This document shows, one piece after another, positions 780 through 56,700 of a stretch of 64,000 nucleotides of DNA. This stretch comes from Apteryx mantelli. Its lineage: Eukaryota > Chordata > Aves > Apterygiformes > Apterygidae. The notes below the pieces were generated by a model that worked only from the letters and a program-made list of their open reading frames with translations, was not told where the DNA came from and did no database searches. The stretch is taken from positions 20,540,458-20,604,457 of the forward strand of contig NC_089979.1 of assembly GCF_036417845.1 (NCBI RefSeq), read 5' to 3'. Both the position numbers and the translations under genes were made by a program. Each line of letters starts with the position of its first letter. The first letter of the stretch is position 1.

Positions 780-867
780 CTATTTTTATGTTGAACCAGC
801 AAACGATACAGTTTTTCAGTTTCTCCACTCCCATACAGGTAGTCTGCTTGCTCTATAACTTCTTCAA
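780..867 (-). CDS. RMDN1: RMDN1 coding exon 3
   Basis: The acceptor is CTTAAG|TTGAAG and the donor is ATAG|GTATTT. The 88-nt exon encodes (V)[19 protein letters not shown] followed by YRLLVQHKN, almost identical to the human sequence after exon 2. It is the start of the TPR-like helical region. It is too short to stand out as an ORF and was found by matching the expected protein continuation. Confidence 0.9.
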
Positions 868-3800
868 CTTAAGAGAGAAGGAGGATCATGGAAACAGGAG
901 AACAAATTACACGTAAATGGTATATTACAGCATAAACAAAACATTAAGAGCAAGATGTTCTAGCTGAAACACAAAGAACAAATTAACTAGTTCCTTTTTA
1001 GGCCATCGTTCCTAAAGATCAAATCAAACAACAACTTTCATGCAAGGCAGAATTGGATAAGTTACATTTACAACAGCTAAGAGATACAGTGGCGGTAGCT
1101 CTTCTCTCTCATGGAACTATAAAACAGCCTTTGGCAACAGGCAGCTTTGGAAGCTTAATGGATTTACGTTAAGTGTCTTTCTCAAAGCATCAAACACTAG
1201 AAGCAATTTTTCTTCTAGGTGAGCGACTGAAAAGCAAAAGAAATAGTAAGAAAAAAAAAGACCAGGAAGGCAAGTGCAACAGACTGCAAGGAGCGAGACT
1301 CCCTCATTAGTACATGTACAGAATTTACAGATAATAATGAAAAAAGAAAAACAAACAAAATAAAATAAATCCAAAAGGTTTTGTTAAAATAATAAAAAAA
1401 AAGTTTTGTTAAAATATTCTTGATTCTCAGGATGATTCTATAGTTTGGCCAAAATAGTGCTGCAGATGCAGGCCCATATCTTATTCAATAAACCAAAATT
1501 AAACATTACTTGAAGTTTTGCCTATTGAAGCGCTTAAGATTTTCACAAATACATGACTCTAAAAAATAAAGTTCATCTACAGAAACATTTATTTTTAAAA
1601 ATACTAAAAACAAAAATAGACAAAGCGGAACCTGAAAAAAAAAAAAAAGCTGGCTTTCTAGAATATTAATGATATGAAGTATACATTGTTCTTACAATTT
1701 TTAATTCTTTTTCTAGAGAATATTTTAAAACACTGACAACAGAAATAGTGGAGTAAGATTTTCACAATTAGCTGAATATATATATACACACACACATATA
1801 TATACACCATATAAATATACATACACACGCATATAAAACTGTGTTCCACAAGCAGAAATATTGAGTAACGTGCAGTACAGTATTCTAGCATGGCATTAGA
1901 TGGAATTAGGAGAAAAGAAATACCCAAATAGAAGCAGGTAGATAACTCCATTAAGTATATAACTGTATAGGAGAAAGAATCCCAAGGTTATTAAATGTAA
2001 TTTTTTAATGCTTTAGTGTTGGCAGAAGAGTATTTTAATAAGTCAAAAGCCTTGCTTAGTTTCTTTTAGACTTTTCAGTGCTTAGTTTCTTTTAGACTTT
2101 TCAGTAATGCTTATCACTATGTTTATCATTTCCTGTGCATTACTCCTTCATCTGTGATTAAACTTTGGAGTCAAACATCATAGGGTCTATTCCTCCTTTG
2201 TAAAAATCCCCCCTCTTTATTTTTTTTAAGTTATTACTGAATATTGTAGTTTCATAGCAGTGCAGTTTTATTTACAGAACAACAATCCACCAAAGGCTGC
2301 TAAATACAAAACCCCCATTTCCAGCTAAAAAGCTTTACAAATCACACCTGTATAAAAAGTACAAATCACTGAAGATTAGGAGAGCATTCTGGGCAATTTT
2401 TTACCCCGTCAGCTCTAAACATCTTCTGTCAGCCACTTCAAAGATAAGATAATGGTCTATCTTGACTTTGGCACAGCCATTATTACAATTGATTCACTGA
2501 AGTAAAGATGCAGAGTTATTTAAGTCTTTAAGATTAGCTCCAAAGTATATCTTCAGTTTTACCTTCGCTGAACTGTTTTATTTGCTCCCTAAGACACACT
2601 GAACATTAACATATCTAATGAAACATATCTAATACAGAAGAAGTTCCATCTGAACATAAGGAATAAATTTTTTACTGTGAGGGTGACTGAGCACTGGAAC
2701 AGGTTGCCCAGAGAGGTTGTGGAGTCTTCTTCCCTCCATATTGAAAAGCCGTCTGGACACGATCCTGGGCAACATGATTTAGGTGACCCTGCTTGAGCAG
2801 GGGGGTTAGACTAGATGATCTCAAGAGGCTCCTTCCAACCTCAGCCGCTCTGTAAATGCTCAGAACTTGAACTTCTGAAAACATTACCCACCAGATGTTT
2901 CACCTAAATTATTAGGCATTTATTTCTTCAAGAGTATTTTTGAAGTATTTCTTTTTTCTCTCTTATTTTGACCATATCTTGTCTTGCATGGAAAGCACAG
3001 CAATACCGCTGTTCTTAGTACTCCAAATGTCAGATCACGTGAGAGTTAAAGCACTAGAAGCCACAGCCAACTTAATAACATTATTTATGTCCCTCATGTT
3101 CAAACTAAATTTTCCTGTTTGTATACAGGCATTCCTCGGAGATATTGCGGGTTCGGTTCCAGACCACTGCAATAAAGCGAATATCACAATACAGCGAGTC
3201 ACACGAATTTTTTGGTTTCCCAGTGCATATAAAAGTTATGTTTACACTATACTGTAGTCTATTACATGTGCAATAGCATTATGTCTAAAAAAACAATGTA
3301 TATAGCTTAATTAAAAAATACTTTATTGCTAAAAAAAATGCTAACCATCATTGAGCCTTCAGCAAGTCGTAATCTTTTTGCTGATGCAGGGTCTTGCCTC
3401 GATGTTGATGGCTGCTGACTGATCAGGGTGGTGGTTGCTGAAGGTTGCGGTGGCTGTGGCAATTTCTTAAAATAAGACAGCAATGAAGTCTGCCACATCA
3501 GTTGAATCTTCCTTTCACGAAGGATTTCTCTGTAGCATGCAATGCTGTTTGACAGCATTTTACCCACAATAGAACTTCTTTCAAAATTGGAGTCAGTCCT
3601 CTCAAACCCTGCTGCTGCTTTATCAACTAAGTTTACGTAATATTCTAAATCCTTTGTTGTCACTTCAACAATGTTCCCAGCATCTTCATCAGGAGTAGAT
3701 TCCATCTCAAGAAGCCACTTTCTTTGCTCCTCCATTAGAAGCAACTCCTCATCCGTTAAAGTTTCATCATGAGATTGCAGCAATTCAGTCACCTCTTCAG

Positions 3801-6800
3801 GCTCCGCTTCTAATTCTAGTTTTCTTGCTATTTCCACCACATCTGCAGTTACTTCCTCCACTGAAGTCCTGAAGCCCTCAAAGTCATCTATGAAGGCTGG
3901 AATCAACTTCTTCCAAACTCCTGTTAATGTTGATATTTTAACCTCCTCCCATAAATGATGAATGTTCTTAATGGCATCTAGAATGGTGAATCCTTTCCAG
4001 AAGGGTTTCAATTTACTCTGCCCAGATCCATCAGAGGAATCACTATCTATGGCAGCTCTAGCCTTACGAAATGTATTTCTTAAATAATAAGACTTGAAAG
4101 TCGAAATTAGTCCTTGATCCCTGGGCTGCAGAATGGATGTTGTGTTAGCAGGCATGAAAACAACATTCATCTTGTTGTACATCTCCATCAGAGCTCTTGG
4201 GTGACCAGGTGCATTGTCAATGAGCCGTAATATTTTGAAAGGAATCTTTTTTTCTGAGCAGCAGGTCCAACACAGGGCTTAAAATAGTCAGCAAACCAAG
4301 TTGTAAACAGATGTGCTGTCATCCAGGCTTTGTTGCTCCATTTACAGAGCACAGGCAGAGCAGATTTAGCATAATTCTTAAGGATTCCTAGGATTTTCAG
4401 AATGGTAAATGAGCACTGGCTTCAACTTAAAGTCACCAGCTGCATTAGCCCCTAACAAGAGAGTCAGCCTGTCCTTTGAAGCCAGGCATTGACTTCTCCT
4501 CTCTAGCTATGAAAGTCCTAGATGGCATCTTCTTCCAATATAAGGCTGTTTCATCTACATTGAAAATCTGTTGTTTAGTGTAGCCACCTTCATCAATTCT
4601 CTTAGCTAGATCTTCTGGATAACTTGCTGCTTCACCTAGCACTTTTATGTTATGGAGACAGCTTCTTTCCTTAAACCTCATGAACCAACCTCTGCTAGCT
4701 TCAAACTTTTCTTCTGCAGCTTCCTCACCTCTCTCAGCCTTCACAGAACTGAAGAGATTTAGGGCCTTGCTCTGGATTAGGCTTTGGCTTAAGGGAATGT
4801 CGTGGCTGGTTTGATCTTCTGTCCAAACCACTAAAACTTTCTCCGTATCAGCAGTAAGGCCGTTTTGCTTTCTTAGCATTTGTGTGTTCACTGGAGTAGC
4901 ACTTTGAATTTCCTTCAAGAACTTTTCCTTTGCATTCACAACTTGGCTCACTGTTTGGCGCAAGAGGCCCAGCTTTCGGCCTATCTCGGCTGTTGACACA
5001 CCTTCCTCACTAAGCTTCATCATTTCTAGCTTTTGATTTAAAGTGAGTGACGTGTAACTCTTCCTTTCACTTGAACACTTAGAGGCCGTTGTAGGGTTAT
5101 TAACTGCCCTAATTTCAATATTGTTGTGTCTCAGAGAATAGGGAGGCCCGAGGAAAGGGAGAGAGACGGGGGAACGGCCGGTTGGTGGAGCAGTCAGAAC
5201 ACATGCAACATTTATCGATTAAGTTTGCTGTCTTACCTGGGCACAGTTCGTGGTGCCCCAAAACAATTACAGTAGTAACATCAAAGATCACTGATCACAG
5301 ATCACCATAACAGATATCATAATAATGAAAAAGTTTGAAATATTGTGAGAATTAGCAAAATGTGACAGAGACACGAAGTGAGCACATGCTGTTGGAAAAA
5401 CGGTGCTGACAGACTTGCTCGACACAGGGTTGCCACCAACCTTCAATGTGTACAAAACACAATATCTGTGAAGTGCAATAAAGCGAAGCGCAATAAAATG
5501 AGGTATGCCTGTAGTGAGTAGCCATCTTAAATCTGTTCACTAAAGCTCCCTCTATTATGGCTCAATATCCTTTCAAAAGTCAATTATCTACATTTTTATT
5601 TCTAAAAGCATAAGTGATTCAGGATGTTCCTTTCTTTGAAATCTACACAAAGAGGCTGTCAGAACTGACTATTATCTACACGGTTTGTGTTTCAGTTAGG
5701 CTCCATTCTCTGTAACACCTTTAATTTACCACATGATAGGCAAGTTTTAAGAAATTTAAGTCTGTGACAAAATCTTCTTAAAATAACAATATTTTTCTTC
5801 CATTAGAGAGACTATCTTTATTCAGATCTTGAAAAGAACATTTTACCACTTGCTCTATTCTTTTTCTGGTAGGTAAAGCACTGCTTTTGCTCCTATTTTT
5901 TTTTTAAAGTGACCAAAAAAAAGTTATTTCTCATTTTTGTTTGAGACATGATCACAGTGCCGCTCAACAACACTAAATGAGAACTCCACTGTGTTCATAT
6001 TAAAAATTTAAATTAAGGAGTCTAAAAATTGATTAAAGTTTGGACTGCACTCCCAACTGAACTGTATTGTTCTCAAAAAGAGTTATTTAAAGTGTGGGCC
6101 ACAAAATGGCTTGTGCACATATCCTGTCCTACACAGGACAGGATGCTGGACATTTCAGTGACATTTGAAAGAACTGCCTATTAAACCACCACTAAGCTTT
6201 AAAACTCTGACCTAATTCAAAATCATCCTACTCATGGAAATGCACTGAACACAATAGAGAAACTTAAAAGCATTATGCTGTTTTCCTATATGATCCTGGC
6301 ACTAAAAGTGACAAGCTTTGCCTTGGAATGACCTGCACACTGCAGAATTTGAAAATATTACCTTTGAAGCTTGCATGAACCTCAGCAAAGCGAGAAATCA
6401 GTCTGTAAGTTTCATAAACTAGAAAGGACCCTGCTGACAGAGCAATCCCCCTTTTAAAGTCTTTTCCAAGCACCTGCAAGGGATTATAAAATGTGTATTA
6501 ATAAATATTGTTACACTGAATTAAAAAAAATGTTTTTCTGGTCTCCAAAACTTTCGAATCTGGTTTATAGAAAACTACAATTATATTTCAGACTTAGAAC
6601 ACAGAAAGGGCTTTTTTAAGTCAAAAGAAAAAATAACAAGATTCCCCCCCCCACACACACACACAATATCAACAGGAATGTTTCTTTCCAAGCTTTCCAC
6701 CAGGGAAACTTGATAATTATGCTTTAAAATATAAACTGAGCACTAGACTGCAAATAAATAAATAAGCAGTAAACACAGGGTAAGAAACAGAAAAAAACCA

Positions 6801-12132: not shown

Positions 12133-14261
12133 TAGTCCAGTGCCATAATTGTCACTACTAGCCCCTTCAGTGGAGGAAAGCATCCTTGTTTGTCACAGCT
12201 TGATTGTCTGCTTCTCACAGCGGCAATGACATTTTCCAGGCATATGTTATTGTTCTCTGCTTGTGCATGGTTAGCTTCTTTGCATATGCAGCAGTTACAA
12301 AGAGATGGTAGAAGCCAATGCTGAGATTATGTATTGAGCATTGTTGCAGGTTTTATTTGTTAGATGGTGTTGTCTCACAGGTTATTTTCTTTAATTCCTG
12401 TTTTGTCTACCTTTGTCTTATCTCCTCACTGGAACCCTTCTTGTGAAAGGCTGTTGCAAGAAGTCCTGTGGTTGCTTTTTCTGAGAGGCTGTAGAAGAGG
12501 TTCTAAGGAGTACAGACCTAGACATGTTTACCACAAAAATACCTATTTGCAAGAAGTGGTGTCTTAGTCCTATCTGAAAGAGTAGAGACTGAACACTTGC
12601 ATTCGTTTTGCACTCAGGACAGTAAAGCTTCACCTTTATTATTTCAAGATTAGAATTGGTTCAAGACTTTCATTTTTATAGTATATCTACATAATTTATT
12701 TATTTCCATGTTGTCATCTGTCCAGGTTCATGGGAAATGCTTAATATTTCTGGGAGAATCAGACCACTACTTGTGTATGGTACTGTCTTTTTCAGTCTGG
12801 TACGCAGTTTGCATAACACATTTAAATGTTGTAGCATCTGTAGCTGGAAGATTAGCTGATCAGAAACATACTGCATTAGCAAGTTCCAAAGTGTTTCCCC
12901 TACTTTTTCTCTGTCCATCAGGGCTCCGTGGTGAATACAGAATACAGATTATTGCTCTATTGTCATTTGTAGTTTACAGGAGACAGGAAATGTCTTATGA
13001 CAGCAACAGCTTCCTTACATCAGAACAGGTTTGAAACTTGTTACTGAAGGCGGTGATGCCAAACCCAGCTAGAGCAGTGCTCACATTATTAGGCCTTTTG
13101 TCTTTATGTAATTATGTATTTCTGCTTGTCAAATTGACTTAAGCAGCTGTAACTGTGAACATATAATTGTACTACCCTGGAGAGTCATCTGGGCAAGCCT
13201 GTACTCTCCTGTGGTATTGCAGCATTGACATGATTGTTACAGTCTGGCAGTTCCTAAGTGCTCTGTTAGAAGAAGATGCTGATAATAGATCTGTTCCCTT
13301 CCAAGCAGAATGCTATGCGTTTACAGTTGCTGTTTAAAAGCTGACATAGGCCAGGTTATTTGGTGGATACTGCTTGTCTTCAACAGAATCATTAGTAGAA
13401 TTCAGAGAACGTTGTGATCAGGATAACTGCAAGACAAGACTAATCCTTGATTTACAGTTTCCCTTTGATAATGACAGCCGAAGCAGAAGGACCTGTAATA
13501 TGTTTAGTAGACCTAATCATGCTCTTGAATGCCCCAGATGTGTCACAGGATCAGGTCAGAGTACTTCCTTTGTGACCATACATGACTGCTGTTGAGAGTC
13601 TGGATGCTATCTGCTCTTCCATACTCTTTATATAGTAATTGTCAGTCTTATCCAGAATTGTCAATGTTTTTTAAGAGCCTGATACATTCCCGTGATCATA
13701 AAAGCTATTCCAATTAAAAAATATATAAAGTTGTCATCTGGCTCCGATTTGGCATACTTTAGCTTACTTTTTAAGTGTACCCTGTCTGGAGAACAAACAG
13801 TTGAACGACTGGGAAAAGCAGAGGTTTTGGATGTATCTAGCCAGTGGGAAGCACAGGTTACTTTCATGATAAGACCTAACTGAATAAATAAATTATTGTC
13901 TTGTTATGTGATATATCTTCCCTACTTGAAGTCAAGGCTTATCCTGCCAGAACCCAGGCAACACAATCTGTCTATCTAAAATTATTCCAGTATCCCAAAT
14001 CTGCAAATAATCCAGTCATGTATCTGAAACATTTTGCATCTGGTATTGTGTTTTGTAGAATGGTATTTCAAGAGCTAATATACTAGTGCAGCTGGGATTT
14101 TTTATCTCCACTATCCTGAAAAGTTTACAGTTTGCCACATGTTGTGTTCCATGTCTTCAAAAGAGGATGCCTACTTACCTGACAGTGTCTTTGATTCTTG
14201 AAAATGTTTATCGTCTTTGGACATCCTACCACCCAACCTCCAAATCTTCTTTGGGAGTTTT

Positions 14262-15540
14262 TTCACAGACTAGTTGAGGCTGGAAGGGACTTTGGAGATC
14301 ATCTGGTCCAACCCACCTGCCATAACAGGTCAGCTACAGCAGGTTGTCCAGGACCGTGTCCAGTCAGGTTCTGAATGTCTCCAAGGATGGAGAATCCATA
14401 ACTTCTCTGTTCAACCTGTACCAGTGGTCAACAACCCTTACAGTGAAAAAGTGCTTTTTTTATATTCGGACAGAATTTCTTGTGTTTCTGTTTGTGCCCA
14501 TTCCCTCTTGTCCTGTCACTGGGCACCACTCAGAAGAATCTGGCTCTGTCTTCTTTAAACACTCCCACCACATTTATAAACACTGATAAGAGCCCCCTGT
14601 GCCTTCTCTTCTGTAGGCTGAACAGTCCCAGCTCTCGCAGCCTCTCCTCATATGAGAGATGCTCCAGTCCCATAACCATCTTTGTGGCCCTTCACTGGAC
14701 TTGCTCCAGTATGTCCATGTCTTTCTTGTACTGGGGACCCCAGCACTGGAGCCAGTACTCCAGATGCAGCCTCACCAGGGCTGAGTAGAGGGAAAGGATC
14801 ATTTCCCTCGACCTGCTGACAGCACTTTTCCTAATGCAGTCCAGGATACTGTTGGCCTTCTTTGCCCTCAGGGTGCATTACTGGCTCCTATTCAACTTGT
14901 TGTCCACCAGGGTTCCTAGGTCCTTCTCTGCAAAGCTGCTCTCCAGCTGATTGACCCCCAGCCTGTATTTGTGCATGAGGTTATTCCTTCCCAGAAGGGG
15001 AGGACTTTGCATTTCCCTTTGCTCAGCTTCATGAGATCCCTGTTAGACCATTTCTCCAGCCTGTCGAGGTCCCTCTGAATGGCAGCACAACCATCTGGTG
15101 TATCAGCCACTTCTCCCCATTTTTTTATTGTTTGCAAACTTGCTGAGGGTGCATTCAGTCCCATCATCCAGGTCATTAATGAAAGTGCTGAACAGTATTG
15201 GCCTCAGTACCATCCCCTGGGGTATGCCATTAGTGACCAGCCTCCAGCTGGGCTTTGTGTTGCTGATCACAACCCTTGGAGCCCCAAATATCAGCTAATT
15301 TTCAGTCCATCTCTCTGTCTGCTTATGTAGCCTGTACTTAATCAGTTTGTCTATGAGGATGTTATGGACACTATCAAAAACCTTGCTGAAGCAGAGATAA
15401 ACGATATCCTCTGCTCTCCTGTCATTTGCCAAGCCAGTCATCTTGTCGTAGAAGGCTATCAGGTTGGTTAAGCACGATTTTCCCTTCATAAATCCACACT
15501 AACTATTTCCAGTCTCCTTTCTTGTCCTTCATGTGTCAGC
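14262..15540 (-). mobile_element. CR1 LINE, 5'-truncated, with reverse-transcriptase remnants
   Basis: Read on the minus strand, the element ends at about 14262 with the CR1 3' motif (plus-strand ggctggaagggactttggag followed by atcatctggtccaaccc). Further in it encodes pieces of the CR1 ORF2 reverse transcriptase, such as GKSCLTNLIAFYDKMTGLAN and FSKVFDSVHNILIDKL near 15489-15295, then WSNRDLMKLSKGKCKVL near 15060. Frames are broken in several places, so it is a dead copy. The 5' truncation lies near 15540. Confidence 0.93.
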
Positions 15541-16576
15541 TAACACAGGCTTTCAAACATGAGAAGAATTGGGTGGAGCTGTGGTCATTCTCTCCTTTAT
15601 GCATTTTTTATGAGGGATTTTGAGGTTTTATACAGTATGTGCAGAGCTCCAACAGCTACTGCTGTTTAAAAGACTTCTGATTTTGCACATGTGCAGTGTC
15701 TGCATGATGCCAGCAAGTTCTGTAATGACTGCAATGTTGTGAGAGAAATATCTGTTGTTTATACCTGTGTTTAAAGTTTCGTTACCATAAATACTGTATT
15801 TTGGGTTAATGAAGTATGACTTTTTCTCACTGGTAAGTATATTATCTTTTAATGTTTATTTTATTAAAAGTCAGGTTGTATACAGCCATATACTATAAAA
15901 GCATCAGTCTTGCATTATTATGGAGAAACATATTGTCTTTTATTCAAGTATAATAAAATTATTTCTTCAAATACTTTAAAAATATTACAGACCTCTTCAA
16001 TTATATAAGTATTCATTCCTAATATTTTCAAAACCTCTGAGGAAAATAATTTGCATTATTTTCATCTTGCATTTTACAAAACTGGAGATGGACAGAGTAA
16101 AGGACCATCTCAGGACTTGGCAGGTTTTGCTTTTATATCTGGATTTCAAATTCAGTATCCTCTACTCAGATAAATGCATGTTCTTATAAGTAGTTCTGTC
16201 TTTTAGCTGCTATCAACCTAATTATTATGTCTCAAACAGCAGCATTTGTATTTCAGTGAAGGGATATTGAGCAGTTTGTTCATTCCTTCTTTCTGTGTTA
16301 AAGGATGCTGTTTGCACACACCTCTTGCTAAATCTGCTGTCTTCCCAAATTAGATGTATAGTGGGAGAGACAGTGAAATGTGGAGGAGAGGAAGTCACAA
16401 AATATTCATATGAAAAAGAGCTTGTAGCATAAGAGAAATGGGGAGGAGAGGGATGCGCAAAGGCTAAATAGAAAAACTGATCAAATTTTTAGGTTGGCTG
16501 GTTGCTGTCCATTTACTAGTGATGTTGGAAGCAGTACTTAACAAAAGAAATGTGACTAAGCATCTTTTCACAAGCT

Positions 16577-45538: not shown

Positions 45539-45784
45539 CTATACCTCTTTCTTCTCTTCAACTTCAACTTTAAGGATCTCTCTTTCTCCTGCTATGGGGG
45601 AAGGAGACATACTAATGATTAGAGACTTGTTAGTGATTTCTCTGTGCGTAACTGCGCTTGGTGTGAGCTTAGTGTCTGCATTCGGCTTTTCCTTTTGTGC
45701 AGGGGGTGCAGATGAGACAACAGGCTCCAGAGGTTTCTTAGCCTCTTGTTCAGGGTTCTTCCCATCTGCTTTAGCTTGATTTTC
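45539..45784 (-). CDS. CNGB3: CNGB3 last coding exon
   Basis: 246 nt including the TAG. It encodes 81 residues from [20 protein letters not shown] to VEVEEKKEV. The motif SLIISMSPS matches human SLIISMAPS and confirms the frame. Acceptor TTTCTAG|GAA. The human protein has a long run of KENEDK-type repeats here, and this copy does not. Confidence 0.94.
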   Translation of the reverse strand, partial: ENQAKADGKNPEQEAKKPLEPVVSSAPPAQKEKPNADTKLTPSAVTHREITNKSLIISMSPSPIAGEREILKVEVEEKKEV

Positions 45785-47748
45785 CTAGAAATGAGAAGTT
45801 ACACATTTCCAATTGCTGCAGAGGAAATTCAAGCAGTTCTATTTTGTATATGTAGTGGTAAGTCACAGCGTGGGTACTGTGATTAAGATCATGCAGGGTA
45901 CATAAATTTGCGTTCAGCTGCTGAAATTCAATTTCTAAGTGAAAAATGCTATTTCAAAATGAAGATGTCAAAATAAAACCTAGGAAATTTTGTGGGTAGT
46001 GATAGTATCTGCTTCTCCTTAATACAGCAGGATGAAATAGACAAGTTTTGGGGCACACAAACCTTCAGGAAGATTTGAGACAAATTTTAGAACCAGTGTT
46101 TACAGAGATTAGGTACAATGATTAATATCACACCTACTGGGAGCTTTTGCCATTGATTACATTGATAAGGCTACATTTTCTTCTACTCTTTCCAAGTTTT
46201 CCCACTAGCTTCTCCCTGGAGGAATCTATTCTGCTTTCTGTGGCATTACCTGAACTTCTTGTTCTCTCTTCAGCTTCAGCAGCACAGCGAGGCCTGTTTT
46301 TCCTTTCTCTCCGAGCATTGCCTTGAACAATTTTGGAGTTTCCTGTTTCTGCCCAAATAGACTGGCCAAGCACCGGGGCTGTGGCGGTCCAGGAGCAACT
46401 TTCCCCTTCTCCTTCAGCAGCATCCTGGAGACAGGAAAGAAAGAGAGCACACAGCAGTGCAGTGAAACTGGGAAAAGTTCATACAAAACTTAAGTTCAAG
46501 GATGAAGATCTGACAAGTTTTCTAGCCAATTTTTTATTCCAGTTCCAGTGGCCAAGAACAAGCTGGAAAGAGCAAGGCTTTTATCCTGGTACACTACTCT
46601 GGTAGAGCTTATTGTAAATTGGAGGCTGCTGTTCTAATCTAATCTGGAATTTCCTACCTATGTCCTATAGAATAAAGAAATACAAACTCTGATTAAGGTA
46701 TCATAAAGCAGATAGGAGCTTTATAAGGTGCAAAATAGTTGTGTGTGTTGGGCCAGAGTGGGGGAGAGATGCCTTGTACCTGGTGTACATCTCTCCTGTC
46801 TGGCCTTCTGGATACAAATTCAGAGCATGTTTACTGCTCTATTTGGAGTCCGGCTGATGCTTGTGGAGGTAACAGTTCACTAACTTTCAGCATGGCTCAA
46901 CTCTCACGGCTCTGGTTAGAGAGTGGCATTTATTTTGGTCTTCCTCCATACATTACCTTTAAGATATTAAAATTACTAGTGCTGCCAATCATGGGGCAGA
47001 CTAGATTTTCATAGCCTTCCATCACAGTCCTGATTTGCAGTCATAACAGCAGCAAGTAAAGAACCATGAAGGTGAGGATTAGATGAGAGTTTCAAGATAG
47101 ATAGAACCAGTGAAAAGCAGCAGACTCCCCTGCTTTCAGTTTCTATTAGGTTATGGTACAGTTTTCAAAGCAACTTTTCTATCCTTGCAAAAGTCCTGAC
47201 TTGAGTTTTTTTGTGAGCCAGGACTATTCTGGCAGCCTAAAATACAGTAAATCCCATAATATTGCTACTTTTTTTGAGTGTTTTGTACTTTGCAACTTCA
47301 GGAATTTCAGCAGTGAAGATTTTACTTTATTTATTTATTTATTTTTGTCAAATTAAGAAGGTACGCTTTAGCAGCTTCCATGGATTAATTACTTAAGCAC
47401 CATACAGTGAATATCAGGTAGGTGATAACAGAACAAATTTATTGCTTGAATAACTCCTTTGAGTTATATCAGGTAGTTTATTCCAAGAGGTCTTTTACAG
47501 GTCCAGGAGGGCCAATATAATTCCACAGAGATCTTCACTGTAAACTTTTCAGGACAGAGCAACTAATGGTGCGATTCCAAAATTGAACATAACTGCAAAT
47601 CTCTATCAAAACTGCGCAAATATCCTATTTGTGCCTGGTTTTTCAGGACACATGGCTGCCATACACAGAGCATGGGAGCTTTGGGATGAATTAATGGATG
47701 CCCAGACAGGCGAGCAGAGTACACGGCCTCCAGCACAGGATACCATGC

Positions 47749-47780
<32 letters not shown>

Positions 47781-50700
47781 TGCGTATTTTGTAAATTACA
47801 CATGATATCCTTAGGTAAGGCTGATATCTAGAAAGGGCTTTGGGCCCAAATGTGAATATATACATGGAGGGTGGCTAATGATTAAGCTCCTGCAGTTGGG
47901 AAAGGCTATCTAGAATTTAATGGCTTGGCAGGGTAAGGTGGGGGTGGGCAAGGAGACAGGAGAAAGTGGTGTGAGACAGAAGCTGAAATAACAAGTAGTG
48001 TTGGTCATACCACTATTAGAAAGAAGCTGGAGACAAGGTAGGAAGAATAATTGCTGGGGGGCTATCAGTCAGTGGCTTTCTTCTACCTTCCCACCAGTTG
48101 ATGCTGGTTTTGAAAATCAGCCTCTCTGAAGACCATCAGTGTGAAAACACTTACCAAATGGGCAAGATCTGTGTATTTCCTACTCCCATGTTTGGTGCCA
48201 TGGACATCACATCAACCTTCCTGTCTCATTCAGGGATCCATCGTTGAGTCTGGAGTATATAAGCTCCCTTCAGTTCACCTGGGCACCAGTGTTGTTGAGA
48301 GACTAGCTTTTCCTGACATTTTTTGTCACAGGCTCCCTGTCAATAAGCTCCCAGTGACTGGCTGACGTGTGTGGTTCTGCTTGCATTCACCTAGAATCTA
48401 AGCTCCTCAATGTTTTTGGGTATTAGGCTTCATTATACTGTCTTGGATTCAGGTTTCCTTTCTCTCTTGCTAAACCTTATACCACGAACAGGAAGTGCCA
48501 TGGGCAAGAGTCCAACAGACCGTTTTGGGAAACACCCTACGGACTAGGCACTTACGCTTTTCAGGTGGCAATAAGCCCATTCTGCGTCTGCGTTTCTTGC
48601 TCCTCAGGAAAGTGATTCTTAAGATACTACTATTTGATAACCAGGATTGTTGAAACATGCCTAATGCAACTGTTTACCGGCACTTCCACTAAATATGTTG
48701 CTCCTGTACTATGTTTCGTCTCCTCTGGTGGAATTTCAGATCTGGGAGGTTTTCCACCTTTTGATATCAATGCAAGGCAACAGTTCAGAACAGTAGAGTG
48801 CCAAAGTATGCTAATAATGAAAAACTGTTTCACATGTTTAGGCCTTTTAGATTTAGAAGGTAGCAAAACACTTTCATAATTTTGTTTTGACAAAATCTGG
48901 CGATATTTTGCCCTTACAAAGCCTGGGGAAACTCACCCCAGCAAACTACAGCCAAAGCAAAGTAAAAAACAGTTTCAATGTGAAATCCTGTTCCAGAATC
49001 CCTTTGCACAAAATGCACACTTCTCAGATGGGTGTACGTATCTCCGATCTTGTGAGGCCTTACTTCAAATGCATTCCTATCTACTCTTTAGGATTTTGGA
49101 AATGTATTCAAGTCTGTGGGTACGTTAAAGCTCATATCTATAGAGTTAATTGCAAGGGCTCAGTTGCACCTTTGAAAACCTGCTCCTTGCCTGACATCTG
49201 TCTTGCAATATCTATCTTTCTTGGGTATATAAGGAGTCCTGATATGTATCTGTACCTCCTATTTTTTTTGTTACCTTAAATATATTTTGGAGAAGACAAC
49301 TGCATTCAGAACTTCATTGTATTTACCACATTTCCACAGCCCTTGTCATCCCCGCCAAGACCATGGCTTCCACTAAATGCTATCAGAAAAAAATTGACAT
49401 CTAAATACAAATGTGTTTATATTTGTTGCTATTCCAGGAAATGAGTGCAAATCTGTCTAGAAGCTACAACTGTTCATTCCACAGCTAAACAATGTGATTT
49501 AAAAATTATTATTAGGACATACTTTGCTTTCTTCATCAGAATCTTTTCTGAGTCAGGATAGTGTACCAAGATTTCATTGAGGGTGGTCTTGTCTAAAACG
49601 AAAAGGTTGGCAAAACCATGAGCCACCACGTTGGCAGTCCTCCGATTTCCTCCACCCGCTGCTAATAGGCTGGAATGAAAATAAACATGGACAGTCAGGT
49701 TGTTACTTGCCATCGTGAGGAGTCTCTTTGCTGGTGTTCGCCACTAAAGTCATCACAAGGTTCACTTACCCAACTGTTATCTCTGGTATTCTGCAAACTC
49801 TTTTTGCAGGTAGGATAGAAAATATTTTTTTGCCTCAAGAAGGCAAATTGTCGCTACTGGTCAGGACTGTGCTGATGCTAAGGACTGAGAGAGGTCTTGC
49901 TGGATAGACACATTTCAGTGCAAGGACTGCATTTGTTTTAGTCTTCATGTGAACTTAGAATTCCCTCAATTTTATTGTTGAAAGTGATTTACATAAGAAG
50001 TAGAGCAGCACACCTCTGATATTATTGAAAAAGTTATTTACAGTGAGTGAATTATTCTCCATCCCAAGAATTTTAATTTTCCTGAGCAAATAATTTTTGT
50101 GGGTCTCTGGTTTTCAGTCTTCTCACATATCTCATCTAATGTTTGCATGTTGGCAAACTGAATAATATGGATTGAGAAGGTCTTTCAACCTGACAGTTAA
50201 AAGTGTGTCTGTGTGAGAAGGCAGCTGTTTTGTTTTAAAAATAAGGCCTTAGGCCATCTTAGCAAACAGTAGTTGAGCATAGGAATGATATCCACATAAA
50301 AATATGTTGTACAAATAACAGTTAAGTTGCTCATCTTGCGTTAAACAAACAAAAGGAAGAGACCTCACTTCTCAGCTGTGGTGTTAAGCAAGAGAAGTTG
50401 CATTTTATTCTTAGTGTTAAAATTTGCTTTATCCCTGTATTAAAGGAGATCCACCATAGAAAATTGTTCCTTAACTGTTTCTCTGAGAGTTTATAAAGAA
50501 TATTCAATAATATCCAAATTTAAAGGTTATTAGTAAAGGATAATGTGGATCCTATCTTCTATTAAGCATGATTTAATATTTATCCTTAATTAAGGATATA
50601 CTAATATTTATTTTTAATTTTAAGGATGTTTATACAAGGTATTTATAAATATTAGATTATACTGATTATACTTGATTTATAAAGCATAACATGAGACCTC

Positions 50701-53700
50701 TGCAATTGTGTGTATAAGATTATTTTTACACACATGCAAACACACATGTTTTTGTGACCTAAGACAGCAATCAATATATGAACTCAAGTTGAAAATGCAG
50801 TGTATCAGGTTCTTTTTAAAACAATTATGTACAATTCCTCAAATAGAAAAATAAGCACCTGCACAATAAGGAGAGCAGCTAACGAAAATTCCAACCAACT
50901 TTGTTCTGATGAATCGCTTTGTAGCAAATCATTGAACAATCATTTTCAGGCTCTTCCAAGAGAAAGCCCATTTCATTGAGGCAGACTAGGACTAAAGAAA
51001 TCATTTTTTTTCCTTATAGTAATGATATGAGGTGAATTTTACAAGTAAGGCCTTGCTCAAACAAAATCATCTTTGACTAAGGACAACATTATGGACTTCA
51101 TGACTGGGTCTGTTTTGGCCAGTATGCTAAAAGTTAGGTGGTAGACTAAATCTTTAAAAATAACTACATTCATCTTACAGTAGTCCTTGATGCTATAAGA
51201 TCCATATTAATAGAGACATTGCTTTTTCTGCCTTACATTTTTTCCTCCAGTTATTAGCCTAAAATGCTGTAATATTAGTGTGAAAGGTTATCTTTTGAAT
51301 TCTCATGGTAGCAATTTTAATTTAGAAGTATCAAGCTGTCAGGGTGATGAGTCAACTTATCAGTTTGTCTTTTATAACTGATCTCTGTAGGAAGCTGCCC
51401 TTTGCTGAAATTAGCAAACCTGATGCAGGAAATGGTGTGCTCATCTGCTGAGCGCCCAGGGCTGCGGCTCCCCAACCCAGCCCTAGCATGTGTATGGAGA
51501 GAGCTGGTAAGTCAGAAAAAGAGAAATAGATCAGGATCTTGCTTCTGAGCAGAATGTCAAATGCTAAAGCTCACTGAGAAGCAGCAGCTGCTGCCTCATG
51601 GGAAGTTCTGGGCCAGAGCTGAAAATTTAATTTTTCAGAACACTAAATATTCTATTGAACTTTAGCTTGTTTTATAGATGATAAAATAACATAGCTGTTG
51701 AAAGGCTAAAGCTGAAACCAAACTTTTGCAGAAAATCCTGTCAAAAATTTACACATAATAGAGAAATGTTTTAATTTTTCCAGAATTACTGTTTTCTGAT
51801 GGGAAATTGTGCTAGTGTAATAACTGACAAAATGGATGAATGAAGACATCTGGTTTAAAGTGTAAACTTCTCTGGGCTGATGAAGTATTTTGTTATAGTT
51901 TTCCTCTCCTGAATTTCTCAATTATCTGTGCAGACAGGCTCCCATTAAGACAGCAATCTGTTTGCCTCTGATTCTAAGATTATTTTGCATCCCCAAACTG
52001 ATATTATCTATACAAAAAAGTAGTAATGAGTGTAAGACATTAAATGGAAGGCAGCTTCTATTACTTAGTCTGTTTCTATAATGATTTTCAAGAATGAAAT
52101 TCGCAAAGAACTGGTTTGAACATTAAACTTGCTTTGGTCTTCTAGTGTAATTCAGGAAAAATGCAAACACATTTTGAACATTGGTAAATTTTTGAAATAC
52201 ATGAAAATTCTTTGTTTTCTTCAACTCCTTTTCCGATAGAGACATTTTAAGGATGATTTACATGCATTTTGAACAGAGTAAGACTAAATAGCAAGTATCT
52301 TATATACTGAGAAAGAAGCTGACATATTTCTCTAAACAAATATTGAATCAGAAGTCAGAAGAAAATCATGACAGTCTGATACCATGGTGATAACCATGCT
52401 ATGAATACTGGGGTAGAAGCTTGGATGTGCTAAATGAAGCAGTATTTCATCCCTTAAAGAGTTTTTTTTTTTTCATTTTCTTCTGCTGTATGGTATTCAG
52501 AAGACCTTGACAGACCTTATATAGAGAAGTGCTATATAAACTCATTATTTTCTAATGTACCGCCACAAGGAGGATAAATCTCTACTGATATACTTAATGG
52601 TTCAGGTCTTTGTTTTTCTTCAGTTTTGTAGACTGTTGTGTATTTTCTGTGTATCCCAGTTGTTGTGTATTTTCTGCTCAAGTTTATCCTCAAGATTAGG
52701 CTATTTATATCCAAAGTGCCTGTGTCTGTACTGGTACTCTTGTAAGGATGTCATGTTGTCTTCGCCAACATGGTAGGTCAATGATGAATAAAACAAGACT
52801 AGAAGTGTAGGCTTATAGCATTGCTGAGGGTTTTACTGACATATTGCCAGTATTGACCATATTGGCAATTATATGCAGAGTAAAATATATTGTGTAATGA
52901 AACTTTGGTCATTGTGTGGGTCTCATGTAGAAAGAAGCGCTCACTTTTATTAGATTAAAAGTTTGAAAATCCCTTCCTTGCATTAAAATCAATCATTATC
53001 ATTTCTCGTGTTTTTTAAAAAAATATCCTCACTCCAAATCCAGAACTCAGAAATAATTGAAAACTTTATGTGGGTTATGTATCTAGGCTGCTTTAGCTTT
53101 TTTCTTTTATATTTTCAGTATCCAGCCCTTATTGAAAACCAGTGCATTCTCAGCCTTTCCACATAGATTACAACACAGCATTTTGTTTTGGAGCTTTGCT
53201 CTAATATTATATTGTCACACAGAGGAATACTTTTAAAATAACCTTCTCTCAAACAGCTGATATAATTTCATTTTCTCACTCAATGGAAAAGGCCTGTATC
53301 TATGGGATAGATCAGGTGTTTTCTGCTTGAAGGTCTGAGCAAGTTCTGTACACAACATCACTGCATAAACTGGCATGTTTCCACTACCACAAAGGCAGAG
53401 GCAAGTAGAAGATAAATGTAAACCTGGCACAGTGCTGATTACCACTTTTCAAAAGGCAGATTAAAGCTACCAGCAAGAGGATTAACTGTAACAGGGCAGC
53501 AGCTGGAAGGAATCAAGGATCCCAGTTTATCACATGCAGCAGCACTTGTATTTTATTACTTTTTCCTCAGGCCAACCTCAGCAGGGGATGCTGTGCCTAA
53601 AATCTAGCACTTGCTTGGCTAATTGGTGAACATGGCACATAAGAGTTAATGGATTTTGCATAGCAACTATGTGGAGAACAGGAAAAACATTTGTAGCGAC

Positions 53701-56700
53701 CTGAGAAAAGTTTTCTCCTCCAGAAAAACTTAGACCCAAAAATCTGATCCGTCAGTCTTTTTCTTTCTCTTAAATGCATTTCTCTTAAACAAATGCATTT
53801 TCATATATGGGTGCCTGATTTTCAGTGACTTAGTCCCTACATCAGCCCTTAAATGAACTAGTCTCATTTGCTATTTTAGGTATCTTCTCTCCCTTGTTAA
53901 AAATTACTTATCACTTTTAGTAGCTGCTGTGTATCTAGGCATCCAGGGCATCTAGTCTCACTACACAAGCAATAAAAAGACATGTGGTCCTGCCATATTG
54001 AGACCTTGGAGCAGGAAGATGTATTAAATCTTCTCAATGGTGAAGGTGAATTCTGTCTGTATAACCCTGAGTGCCTTGCCCAAAACACTTATTACACATT
54101 ATTTGCCATTCAGAAATCTCAAATCTTTCTAAATTAGTCTGTGATGTTTCACTTAAATTTTCTTCAGCTTGTCTACAGCTCTTTGCTCGGTATCCTCTTG
54201 GTTAATGCTACTCAACTTTCTAGCCTCTCCCTGGTACCTGTCATGCTTACCAGTGAGAAGTTAAACAATCATTAATTATTTGACCAGTTCTAAAGAAAGC
54301 ATTAAAATAGTGATAGATGTACCTGATCTCTCCAAATACAGCTCCTGCTCTTAGCGTAACCAGGACTTTTGTACCATCAGGGCCTCCAAGAACTTGAACT
54401 TCCCCTTGTTTGATGATGTACATCTCTCTGCCAATCTCTCCCTGGGCATACAAACATATAAAGATCCCACATTTTAGCAAGGCAGGGGTTTTTTTTAGTA
54501 GAATAATCTGACAAACTCCTCTTTGAATATCTTTCTACTTTCTCATACACAGATTTATCAGTGTTATGGAGAAATAAATGTTTGTTTGCACTACCCTTCC
54601 TAGCATCAAGGACAAGCATGAGGTCTGACTTTGGCAGATCTAATTGTGACGTGAGGCAGGAGTAAGACTCTACAGGCCAGCTTAAAACAAGAAGACTAGA
54701 TAATAATCGGGATTGTATCAGTTGTTTCCATGGACTACTCTGGTGGTAACTGAAGTAATTCAGAAGTATATTTAATAACAGGTGCAAACCTCCCCCCGTG
54801 CTAGTTTTCACACTATTTCTTCTAATTGTCCCTTACCTAATTTTAAAGGAAAAATAGGAATAATGAACCATTCAAAAGTTTGTCTATTTTTATGTAATCA
54901 CTTGATGGTTTAAGAGATTCTTAGCTTATTTATTATCCTCCACGTTAGAGATGATCTGCCAGGATTCAAAAGGGTGACATGTCAGTATAAATGCAAACTT
55001 GTCTGCAAAAAGCAGAAAAGTTGGGGTAACCTGCAAACCTGATGGGACTTTACAAAGGTAATAATCAATAGTTCTCCCAACATCTCAATAAGACAGGCAA
55101 GTAAATACTATTCCACTTGTGCAGCTGGAGTAACTGAGGTAAATCAGGAACTTGGCCTTAAAAGTGAATAGGCAACAGCAGCACAACCAGGGCTGAAAAC
55201 GTGGGGCTTGTTCTTTCTGTCCCTTAGCTTGCTCCTCCAAGCCTGCATGCTGGACCCTTCTAGGTAAAGTATGATGAGCCCAGCGTACAGCCAGGTAGGA
55301 TGTACTCACAGCTCTCAAGTTCTGGCAAGGGTTTTTTCACTACTGCATGATACAGCATTAATAGGATTACAGTACTATGGTGGTTGACCACATAGTAGCT
55401 CTGCGTGGCCTTTTATGGAATGAGTGGAATTAATCAAGCTGAAATAAAATGATTTTTCCATTTCTTGGAACCCATCATTGCCAAGAACTATTTGCCTCTG
55501 ACTGCAGGATCAAGACCTTAAATCTGTTGCTGTCATCTTTTACCTCTGTTGGGGCACAGTCCCAGCCACAGGGGCGGTGTGCAGCTAATTACATATTCAG
55601 TTTGCTCTTTGGAGATGGCTCAGAGGTCCAAGTGTAGGTACATCAAGGTCAGACTCTGCTGTACAGAGCTGTGTGGGATGCCTTGTGTTTTCCTGCGGAT
55701 AATTCTATTTAGAGCTTCTGGGTACACAGTGAAGCACTGTGTATTCACAAGCATCATAGCTTGAGCTCTGTAGGCTAAGTTCGTATGTATATACGTATAA
55801 AAAAATTGAAATTTCCCAATTTTTTATATATTCAGACTTAATGATGTGTCACTAGATATGCTGTATTTACATAAAATGCTTCCCCAGGCTTTCCCAGGCT
55901 ACCACAGTTTTGTTTGATAACGTAAGTAATAAAATCCATATAGTCTTGCTCTAGCTTGAAACTTGAGAGTTTATTGTTATTATTACACATAATACCATAA
56001 TTATTTTTTATGCTATATAATTCTCTCAGGATTAATTTTATTTAAAGTATACTGGTGACCTATATCTGGACTCTTGTTCTAAAATGCATATTATCTTGCA
56101 TTTGAAAGGGATAGTAATGCTCACCTTTTTGCAGACAAAGTCACCAGGTAAATACACGATGGATTTCAACCGTAGCAGCATGTCATATATCATCTGAGTA
56201 TCACACCCCTGTTGAAATAATTATAATTGTGCTGTATTGATTCAGTAACTGAAGTTATTATTAGTGCTTACACTAGACAGCAAAACCCAACAGTACATGA
56301 GTGTACTGAGAGAACCCCAACAGGGGTTCGTAAGTGGAATGCAAACTAACAACATCATAAAGATCACTTTTTAAAGCAGAGAAAATACTTGAAGGAACTG
56401 TCTTTCCAGATACTTATAAAGTGCTCTACTCTCTTGGTTGAACATGTCTTTCTACAAGCTTCTGTACATCTAAATCTGATTGCTGTGGAAGTTCATTTAC
56501 TGCTAGGTTCAGGGCTTTATGGGTCTTTTCTGTGAAACAATTTTTACTGATCCAGGGAAAAAAACAGATCATGCCCAGTGTTGGTATGAATCTATGAATT
56601 TCATGTCTTCAGCAAATGTTGCAAAAACAGTGAAGCTATGTATGTTTCTACAAATGGGATTTCTTGCAATTACCCTGACAAGCAAATTAGTGTTAAGACA

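Follow-up and report, generated by a model that had tools for sequence, protein, structure and literature searches.

A dead copy of the DNA transposon family Tigger1 is present in the window (the whole stretch of 64,000 nucleotides analysed here), and in all probability the family reached the lineage of kiwi (Apteryx) by horizontal transfer, spread in a single burst of copies, and has since decayed. Bird genomes have few DNA transposons, and to our knowledge few are shared by birds and mammals. The link between kiwi and Tigger1 has been known since 2016 (PMC4971623). New here are the integration, age structure, and decay of the kiwi family, which answer the contamination doubt of that year. 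The features of the locus were (window positions):

3126..5511: inactive Tigger1-type DNA transposon of full length (2,386 bp); its transposase reads on the minus strand, in the direction of RMDN1
3124..3125: left TA target-site duplication
5512..5513: right TA target-site duplication
3126..3137, plus strand: left terminal inverted repeat, 11/12 match
5500..5511, minus strand: right terminal inverted repeat
3342..5090, minus strand: broken transposase gene, approximate span, defects scored against the family majority
4445..5023, minus strand: open piece with CENP-B_N and HTH_Tnp_Tc5
3307..4188, minus strand: open piece with the latter half of the catalytic domain DDE_1
780..868, minus strand: presumed RMDN1 exon 3 (by eye), lying downstream of the element in gene sense
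6362..6473, minus strand: presumed RMDN1 exon 2 (by eye), lying upstream of the element in gene sense
2640..2860, no strand assigned: presumed CR1 fragment in the same RMDN1 intron (by eye)

The element is a complete but dead pogo element of the Tigger1 type. The outer 12 bases of its inverted repeats agreed at 11 positions, with TA on either side, and a repeat search of the window returned 14-base arms (3124–3137 and 5500–5513, 93%). The minus-strand pogo-type transposase was recognised by Pfam with HTH_Tnp_Tc5 (49.5 bits), CENP-B_N (41.1), and DDE_1 (61.7), each score exceeding its Pfam cut-off. Compared with the family majority, it carried four frameshifts and one in-frame indel, and its start Met was changed to Thr (codon 5088–5090, read by eye). 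The other 39 of 40 long copies in the host genome were 88–91% identical to the window copy, so the element is not a chance resemblance. In the cut-and-paste cycle known for pogo transposons, the CENP-B_N and HTH domains would bind the short inverted repeats, and the DD32D catalytic core would excise the element and insert it at TA sites, duplicating the TA; the domains, the DD32D spacing, and TA were observed in the kiwi family.

The element lies in what we take to be intron 2 of RMDN1; the gene, its two exons, and the CR1 were recognised by eye. The window also contained a Copine-domain exon, presumably of CPNE3. The best PDB matches of the host beta-globin were 3wtg and 3a59/3fs4, leading further haemoglobins by a few bits; we take 3wtg to be emu and 3a59 ostrich haemoglobin. 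The host RH2 exon read LAIKRY in place of the LAIERY of the chicken probe. This is the Glu3.49Lys change described for the kiwi RH2 opsin (PMC4511969), which identifies the host as kiwi. A first-pass annotation had claimed Tigger1-type termini with TA duplications in an avian host: its coordinates for the termini were exact, and the Copine exon, the beta-globin matches, and the kiwi-type RH2 bear out the bird.

That annotation had also proposed that the copies be counted, and favoured an independent invasion. The count is now at least 40 long Tigger1-type copies in the kiwi genome, the window copy included (a lower bound), and the invasion is upheld by a star-like burst at about 5% divergence, by measured copies close to their majority, and by the published kiwi–bat similarity given below. 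For the detailed set, 30 of the 40 copies, chosen as best-scoring, were fetched and aligned. Their majority was 2,419 bp long. The mean K2P distance to the column majority was 5.05% (SD 0.5%), or 3.9% outside CpG, and the mean pairwise K2P was 9.1%. In a tree of 34 kiwi copies, also star-like, internal branches made up 17% of the total length, and all 37 copies measured in DNA were at most about 6% from the majority. The kiwi copies are the product of one burst. A candidate older Tigger1 layer was rejected: the lowest-identity long protein match (C3:63.55 Mb, 76%, 16 stops) was only 5.7% diverged in DNA, which among the low protein matches was determined for this copy and L007.

The examined copies, pooled and with copy L004 (see below) set apart, decayed neutrally. 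Summed over 30 frames there were 608 synonymous and 1,631 nonsynonymous changes, 80 stops, and 48 frameshifts; the neutral expectation per copy was 21.0 synonymous changes, 53.8 nonsynonymous changes, and 3.1 stops. Outside CpG, divergence was 3.85% in the ORF and 3.83% elsewhere (29 copies, L004 left out).

Platt et al. (PMC4971623) could not rule out that the early kiwi draft was contaminated, and left the choice between this and horizontal transfer undecided. Mammalian DNA in the assembly, or a junction artefact, is now barely conceivable as the source: the 30 fetched copies sit in contigs of 20–223 Mb, the window copy is flanked by bird exons, and the copies differ from one another by the pairwise distance given above, with TA beside many of them. 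Taken at BLAST-defined ends, TA was present at the left in 24 of the 30 copies, at the right in 22, and at both in 17. When the joined flanks of 17 of the 30 copies were compared with the window and the fetched loci for a paralogous empty site, no junction-spanning match was obtained.

The burst was dated with a kiwi rate of 8.0e-10 substitutions per site per year (PMC9550048), itself an estimate, by which 3.9% corresponds to 49 My. An alternative rate in the same source, 1.34e-8 per 25-year generation, gives 73 My; this would predate the split of kiwi and elephant birds, in which case the family might also be present in emu or elephant birds. The age may be underestimated, since best-scoring copies were examined. 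We infer a date of about 50 My, range 30–75; the kiwi family offers an invasion that can be dated, close to the root of the kiwi branch. A single burst of roughly that age fits neither contamination nor descent from the amniote ancestor.

With its divergence of about 5%, the burst is far younger than the bird–mammal split of about 320 My ago. Platt et al. (2016) reported more than 20 kiwi hits at least 97% similar to the bat element Tigger1_MNa, most likely the same kiwi family, and a bat Tigger1 consensus almost 97.5% similar to the human one (PMC4971623); these values are too high for descent across that split. Kiwi–mammal identity is here a matter of these published figures, the link to mammals otherwise being one 18-base primate TIGD1 primer (PMC2777200), which matched the kiwi majority at 16 of 18 bases and the window copy at 15. 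Vertical inheritance of the family since the amniote ancestor, with survival in kiwi, is very improbable. TIGD genes including TIGD1 have been described as syntenic across vertebrates, birds among them, with an ancient insertion inferred (PMC7325037), and the spotted owl was listed with 528 TcMar-Tigger pieces, short and 39,074 bp in total (PMC5629816); in both papers, these bird sequences come without a figure for closeness to Tigger1. Against such descent stand the low divergence of the 37 measured copies, the star-like tree, and the kiwi–bat similarity. A survey reported Tigger in only one bird species, with no intact copy (PMC9219625), TIGD1 is placed only in primates (PMC2777200), and TIGD1 sequences are handled as multi-copy and resembling pseudogenes, which speaks against an ancient gene (PMC7386202).

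For horizontal entry, the donor would have been either a placental mammal or some third host from which mammals, too, received the family. The kiwi family resembles placental Tigger1 in its size of about 2.4 kb (the dolphin element is 2,419 bp, the same as the kiwi majority; published mammalian lengths are 2,408–2,419 bp, PMC3517439), in its TA sites, in its CENP-B_N, HTH, and DDE_1 domains with DD32D (kiwi: Pfam and L004; TIGD1 is DD32D, PMC7325037), and in the published near-identity to the bat consensus (PMC4971623). TIGGER1 is reported as multi-copy in eutherians, marsupials having only one or two copies, which are degenerate (PMC3517439). The kiwi family differs in its bird host and in age: about 5% divergence, as against 12–28% for Tigger1 copies in the four mammals tabulated (PMC3517439), so the kiwi burst was apparently separate and younger. 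The same figures, with about 14% in bats (PMC4971623), favour a parasite, an insect, or another vertebrate as the source of both invasions, since mammals with older copies may have held no active ones when kiwi was invaded. Tigger elements have also been reported to pass between eutherians and other animals, namely arthropods, turtles, and crocodilians (PMC9219625). Such a non-mammalian donor is a serious possibility, towards which we lean slightly less than away from it. No relative of the kiwi element was found in the viral, genome-contig, plasmid, and phage collections searched, which are microbial and viral and hold no animals as such, and we know of no third host with a Tigger1 as close as the kiwi family. 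Two other bird cases are comparable. A pogo-like element found in both a butterfly and the manakin Corapipo altera (PMC7325037) has likewise been reported as a possible horizontal transfer, in another bird and with an insect partner; AviRTE, shared by birds and filarial nematodes (PMC4844689), is likewise a horizontally transferred element with bird lineages among its hosts, but is a retrotransposon with nematode partners.

Some neighbouring copies were nearly identical. Four same-contig pairs were 0.6–2.9% apart, separated by about 95–308 kb, with unrelated flanks. Segmental duplication was rejected for these pairs, as the flanks had no match, and so was local hopping of dead copies, as differences clustered towards one end of the element or both, the interiors being near-identical. 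The latter pattern fits gene conversion, and the neighbours look like old insertions converted in this way, not new jumps. End-clustering was clear in L055/L056 and L016/L017, and less marked in L006/L012, where the outer eighths contained 11 of 15 differences. L024/L054 had 58 differences in the last eighth, denser than usual between copies, and misalignment around a deletion may account for part of them. Over its first 2,311 bp, the fifth pair (L057/L058) showed one mismatch, and over the final 116 bp or so about 16.

One copy departs from the general decay. L004 (C5:50.32 Mb) has an uninterrupted 593-aa DD32D frame with catalytic residues D187, D302, and D335 (spacing 32), and adjoins a WWC-family (KIBRA-like) CpG-island gene. 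It had 24 synonymous and 18 nonsynonymous changes, compared with 584 and 1,693 in the other 29 copies (Fisher p = 2.1e-5). When each converted pair was reduced to one member and L053 and L055 were included, the counts were 24:17 and 591:1,670 (p = 1.7e-5); changes private to one copy gave 9:4 and 226:647 (p = 0.0014). The ratio for L004 was 1.41, well clear of the next value, 0.62. In this one genome, L004 combines an open frame with the signature of purifying selection. From these substitution counts it may be a domesticated host gene, spared decay because the host would make use of its protein.

The frame could instead be open by chance, or stem from a lineage that stayed active longer, and this we consider well possible, if somewhat less so than the contrary. 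L024 also has a frame free of stops, and its changes look neutral (16 synonymous, 57 nonsynonymous), so open frames can outlast decay by chance. L004 is the least diverged of the 30 copies and its ends are nearly intact, the left end being seen to differ at its first base only and the right end matching; gene conversion is present in the family. Its nearest relative, L053, has the next-highest synonymous to nonsynonymous ratio (0.62), and the ratio of coding to non-coding divergence is similarly low in L025 (0.52, compared with 0.46 in L004). Yet L025 itself has 19 synonymous and 49 nonsynonymous changes. The non-coding part of L004 is as diverged as elsewhere (4.6%, other copies 3.8%), the nearest copy is 6.4% away, and its synonymous excess persists after dropping converted pairs and among private changes.

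We give about even chances to the fuller account, in which a family shared with mammals reached the ancestors of kiwi and L004 independently became a host gene, in parallel to TIGD1 beside EIF4E2. Should L004 be a gene, primates and kiwi would have recruited the same transposase independently, and it becomes testable whether CpG-island promoters preserve transposon genes generally. Like L004, primate TIGD1 (PMC2777200) is a Tigger1 copy whose frame has stayed open and retained its catalytic residues, and each has a CpG-island neighbour head to head: EIF4E2 for TIGD1 and the WWC-family gene for L004. The two differ in being independent insertions beside different genes, and of the terminal repeats primate TIGD1 is described as lacking one, while in L004 both ends are present bar the first base.

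The Tigger1-type DNA transposon described in the first-pass annotation was recovered in full, with TA on both sides, matching termini and a three-domain transposase.

window 3126-5511, transposase on the minus strand: full-length Tigger1-type element flanked by TA at either end, 11 matches between the outer 12-base termini

The transposase contained CENP-B_N, HTH_Tnp_Tc5 and DDE_1 domains (minus strand). Compared with the family majority (column-majority sequence of 30 aligned copies), the window copy had 17 synonymous and 60 nonsynonymous changes, four frameshifts and one in-frame indel, and Thr in place of the start Met. The element lies between two minus-strand exons (780-868 and 6362-6473) that we take to be RMDN1, and thus in RMDN1 intron 2, in the same sense as that gene. 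Further along, the plus strand carries an exon that encodes a Copine domain and is presumably CPNE3. Fragments at about 14240-15560 and 2640-2860 were taken by eye to be bird-typical CR1. At 45542-54534 (minus strand), open stretches resembled cone-channel exons (cNMP_binding match at 54250-54534, others by eye), presumably of CNGB3. Cone opsin function has been lost in kiwi, yet these CNGB3-like exons are open.

The avian identity of the host held, on beta-globin and RH2 opsin evidence from its genome. The best PDB matches of the beta-globin were 3wtg (306 bits) and 3a59/3fs4 (305), which we assume to be emu and ostrich, respectively. Other haemoglobins scored 302 or less, and the result is a weak pointer to a palaeognath. 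RH2 read LAIKRY, vs LAIERY in the chicken probe (Glu3.49Lys), a change that, among the ratites sequenced in PMC4511969 (excerpt), is reported for kiwi alone. The host is accordingly taken to be a kiwi (Apteryx). The RH2 opsin (loci L043 and L048; G000 C25:7346-7350 kb) also had a premature stop in the first exon, of which no mention was found in the available part of PMC4511969.

The host genome (1.504 Gb, 408 contigs), in which the window occupies C2:20,540,458-20,604,457, was searched at the DNA and protein levels. The DNA search yielded 913 first-look candidates; the best 40 scored were all long copies (1,914-2,386 of 2,386 bases), comprising the window copy and 39 others of 88-91% identity, and three further hits were fragments. 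The protein search yielded 1,270 candidates, 74 of which were scored. Thirty of the 40 long copies were aligned, and the majority was 2,419 bp long. K2P divergence from it was 3.8-5.9% (mean 5.05%; 3.9% outside CpG sites), the mean pairwise K2P was 9.1%, and internal branches made up 17% of total length in a tree of 34 kiwi copies. Among seven extra copies (L053-L058 and L060), six had 93.9-95.9% BLAST identity to the majority over the main stretch, and the lowest-identity protein match had a DNA divergence of 5.7%. All 37 measured copies, best-scoring or chosen pairs and so biased towards the young side, were alike in divergence and therefore compatible with one burst. Summed over the 30 copies, the frames decay like neutral DNA (608 synonymous and 1,631 nonsynonymous changes, 80 stops, 48 frameshifts; neutral expectation per copy 21.0, 53.8 and 3.1 stops). 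Non-CpG divergence was equal in coding (3.85%) and non-coding (3.83%) parts of 29 copies.

Five same-contig pairs of copies, 76-308 kb apart, were inspected (L006/L012, L016/L017, L024/L054, L055/L056 and L057/L058), and all five had near-identical interiors, differences at one or both ends, and unrelated flanks. Two pairs were at first read as recent hops; this was withdrawn, since near-identical interiors with divergent ends point to conversion. Judged from these sequences, old insertions were apparently homogenised by interlocus gene conversion with long tracts. L006/L012 offered the weakest evidence, and misalignment may account for part of the signal in L024/L054. Other pairs with near-equal protein scores, at C1:26.03/26.45 Mb, C23:10.63/10.93 Mb, C13:8.472/8.485 Mb and C5:63.31/63.57 Mb, possibly also reflect conversion.

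Birds and mammals separated some 320 My ago. According to the excerpts available, TIGGER1 is multi-copy in eutherians (2,408-2,419 bp, 12-28% diverged in four mammals) and present as one or two degenerate copies in marsupials (PMC3517439). Platt et al. 2016 (PMC4971623, excerpt) listed more than 20 kiwi insertions at least 97% like bat Tigger1_MNa, which in turn is nearly 97.5% similar to human TIGGER1; that paper settled neither the neutral expectation nor contamination. Mammalian contamination was rejected here: the 30 aligned copies are embedded in contigs between 20 and 223 Mb long, their flanks are mostly unrelated, and many have TA on both sides. Two sources could count against transfer: 528 TcMar-Tigger pieces (39,074 bp) in an owl genome (PMC5629816), and the placing of TIGD1 among genes spread over tetrapods, birds included (PMC7325037). 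The latter contrasts with excerpts finding TIGD1 in primates only (PMC2777200) or viewing its sequences as multi-copy and pseudogene-like (PMC7386202). A 2022 survey, as excerpted, recorded Tigger in one bird species, without an intact copy (PMC9219625). Literature listings on Tigger or DNA-transposon transfer in kiwi or Apteryx gave PMC4971623, beside the owl paper (PMC5629816) and a Maverick paper; for paleognath DNA transposons and horizontal transfer, no paper was on the subject by title or start of abstract. With one burst in 37/37 measured copies, contamination removed and the published kiwi-bat similarity of at least 97%, the kiwi family was most likely acquired horizontally, as the first-pass annotation had proposed. 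This was foreshadowed in 2016; new are the demonstration that the family is genomic and its rough date.

Non-CpG divergence corresponds to 49 My at 8.0e-10 per site per year (PMC9550048, excerpt), 73 My at 1.34e-8 per generation of 25 years (also cited there) and 33 My at an assumed faster neutral rate of 1.2e-9. As the kiwi-elephant bird separation is put at about 50 My (PMC4511969, PMC9550048; excerpts), the invasion is placed close to where the kiwi branch begins; the family may or may not be common to elephant birds or emu.

More novel than the invasion itself is one copy, L004, a candidate domesticated transposase.

C5:50,322,891-50,325,291: L004 copy, with a 593-aa uninterrupted frame
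G000 C5:50323106-50324884 (L004:1716-3494, minus strand): L004 frame, candidate domesticated transposase
C3:112.38 Mb: stop-free protein match (L054, partner of L024)
C5:20.50 Mb: stop-free protein match
C1:26.03 and 26.45 Mb: pair of stop-free protein matches

The full frame was open in two of 30 copies, L004 and the neutral-looking L024 (16 synonymous:57 nonsynonymous); the four further stop-free matches among the 74 scored, short fragments set aside, were not full-length. L004 retains catalytic residues D187, D302 and D335 (spacing 32). Selected for its open frame before counting, it had 24:18 changes vs 584:1,693 (stops included) summed over the other 29 copies (Fisher p=2.1e-5), and 21:16 vs 476:1,316 outside CpG (p=1.3e-4). 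When only changes confined to a single copy were counted, the figures were 9:4 vs 226:647 (p=0.0014; L012 and L017 left out). The test was repeated after removing one copy from each of four converted pairs and including L053 and L055; this gave 24:17 vs 591:1,670 for all changes (p=1.7e-5) and 9:4 vs 222:663 for those confined to a single copy (p=0.0011). The synonymous/nonsynonymous ratio was 1.41, the next highest of 30 being 0.62 (L053). By region, L004 had 5:2 in the DDE_1 part (mean 5.7:15.7) and 5:2 in the CENP-B_N part (mean 3.3:8.6); residues 62-215 had 5:8 (4.7:16.2), with no clear excess. Divergence of its non-coding part is on a par with that of other copies (4.6% vs 3.8% outside CpG), so L004 is not simply young. 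The coding/non-coding divergence ratio of L025 (0.52) was near that of L004 (0.46), but L025 was neutral at 19:49. The L004 frame is apparently under purifying selection, and its sequence makes it a candidate domesticated transposase gene of kiwi.

A CpG island lies about 1.4 kb from the start of the frame. The gene of this island is oriented oppositely (head to head) and begins with a WW exon of KIBRA/WWC type; we take it to be WWC2. In primates, TIGD1 is similarly an open Tigger copy beside a CpG-island gene, here EIF4E2, with which it shares the CpG-island promoter; neither tree shrew nor little brown bat had it (PMC2777200, excerpt). The parallel is suggestive.
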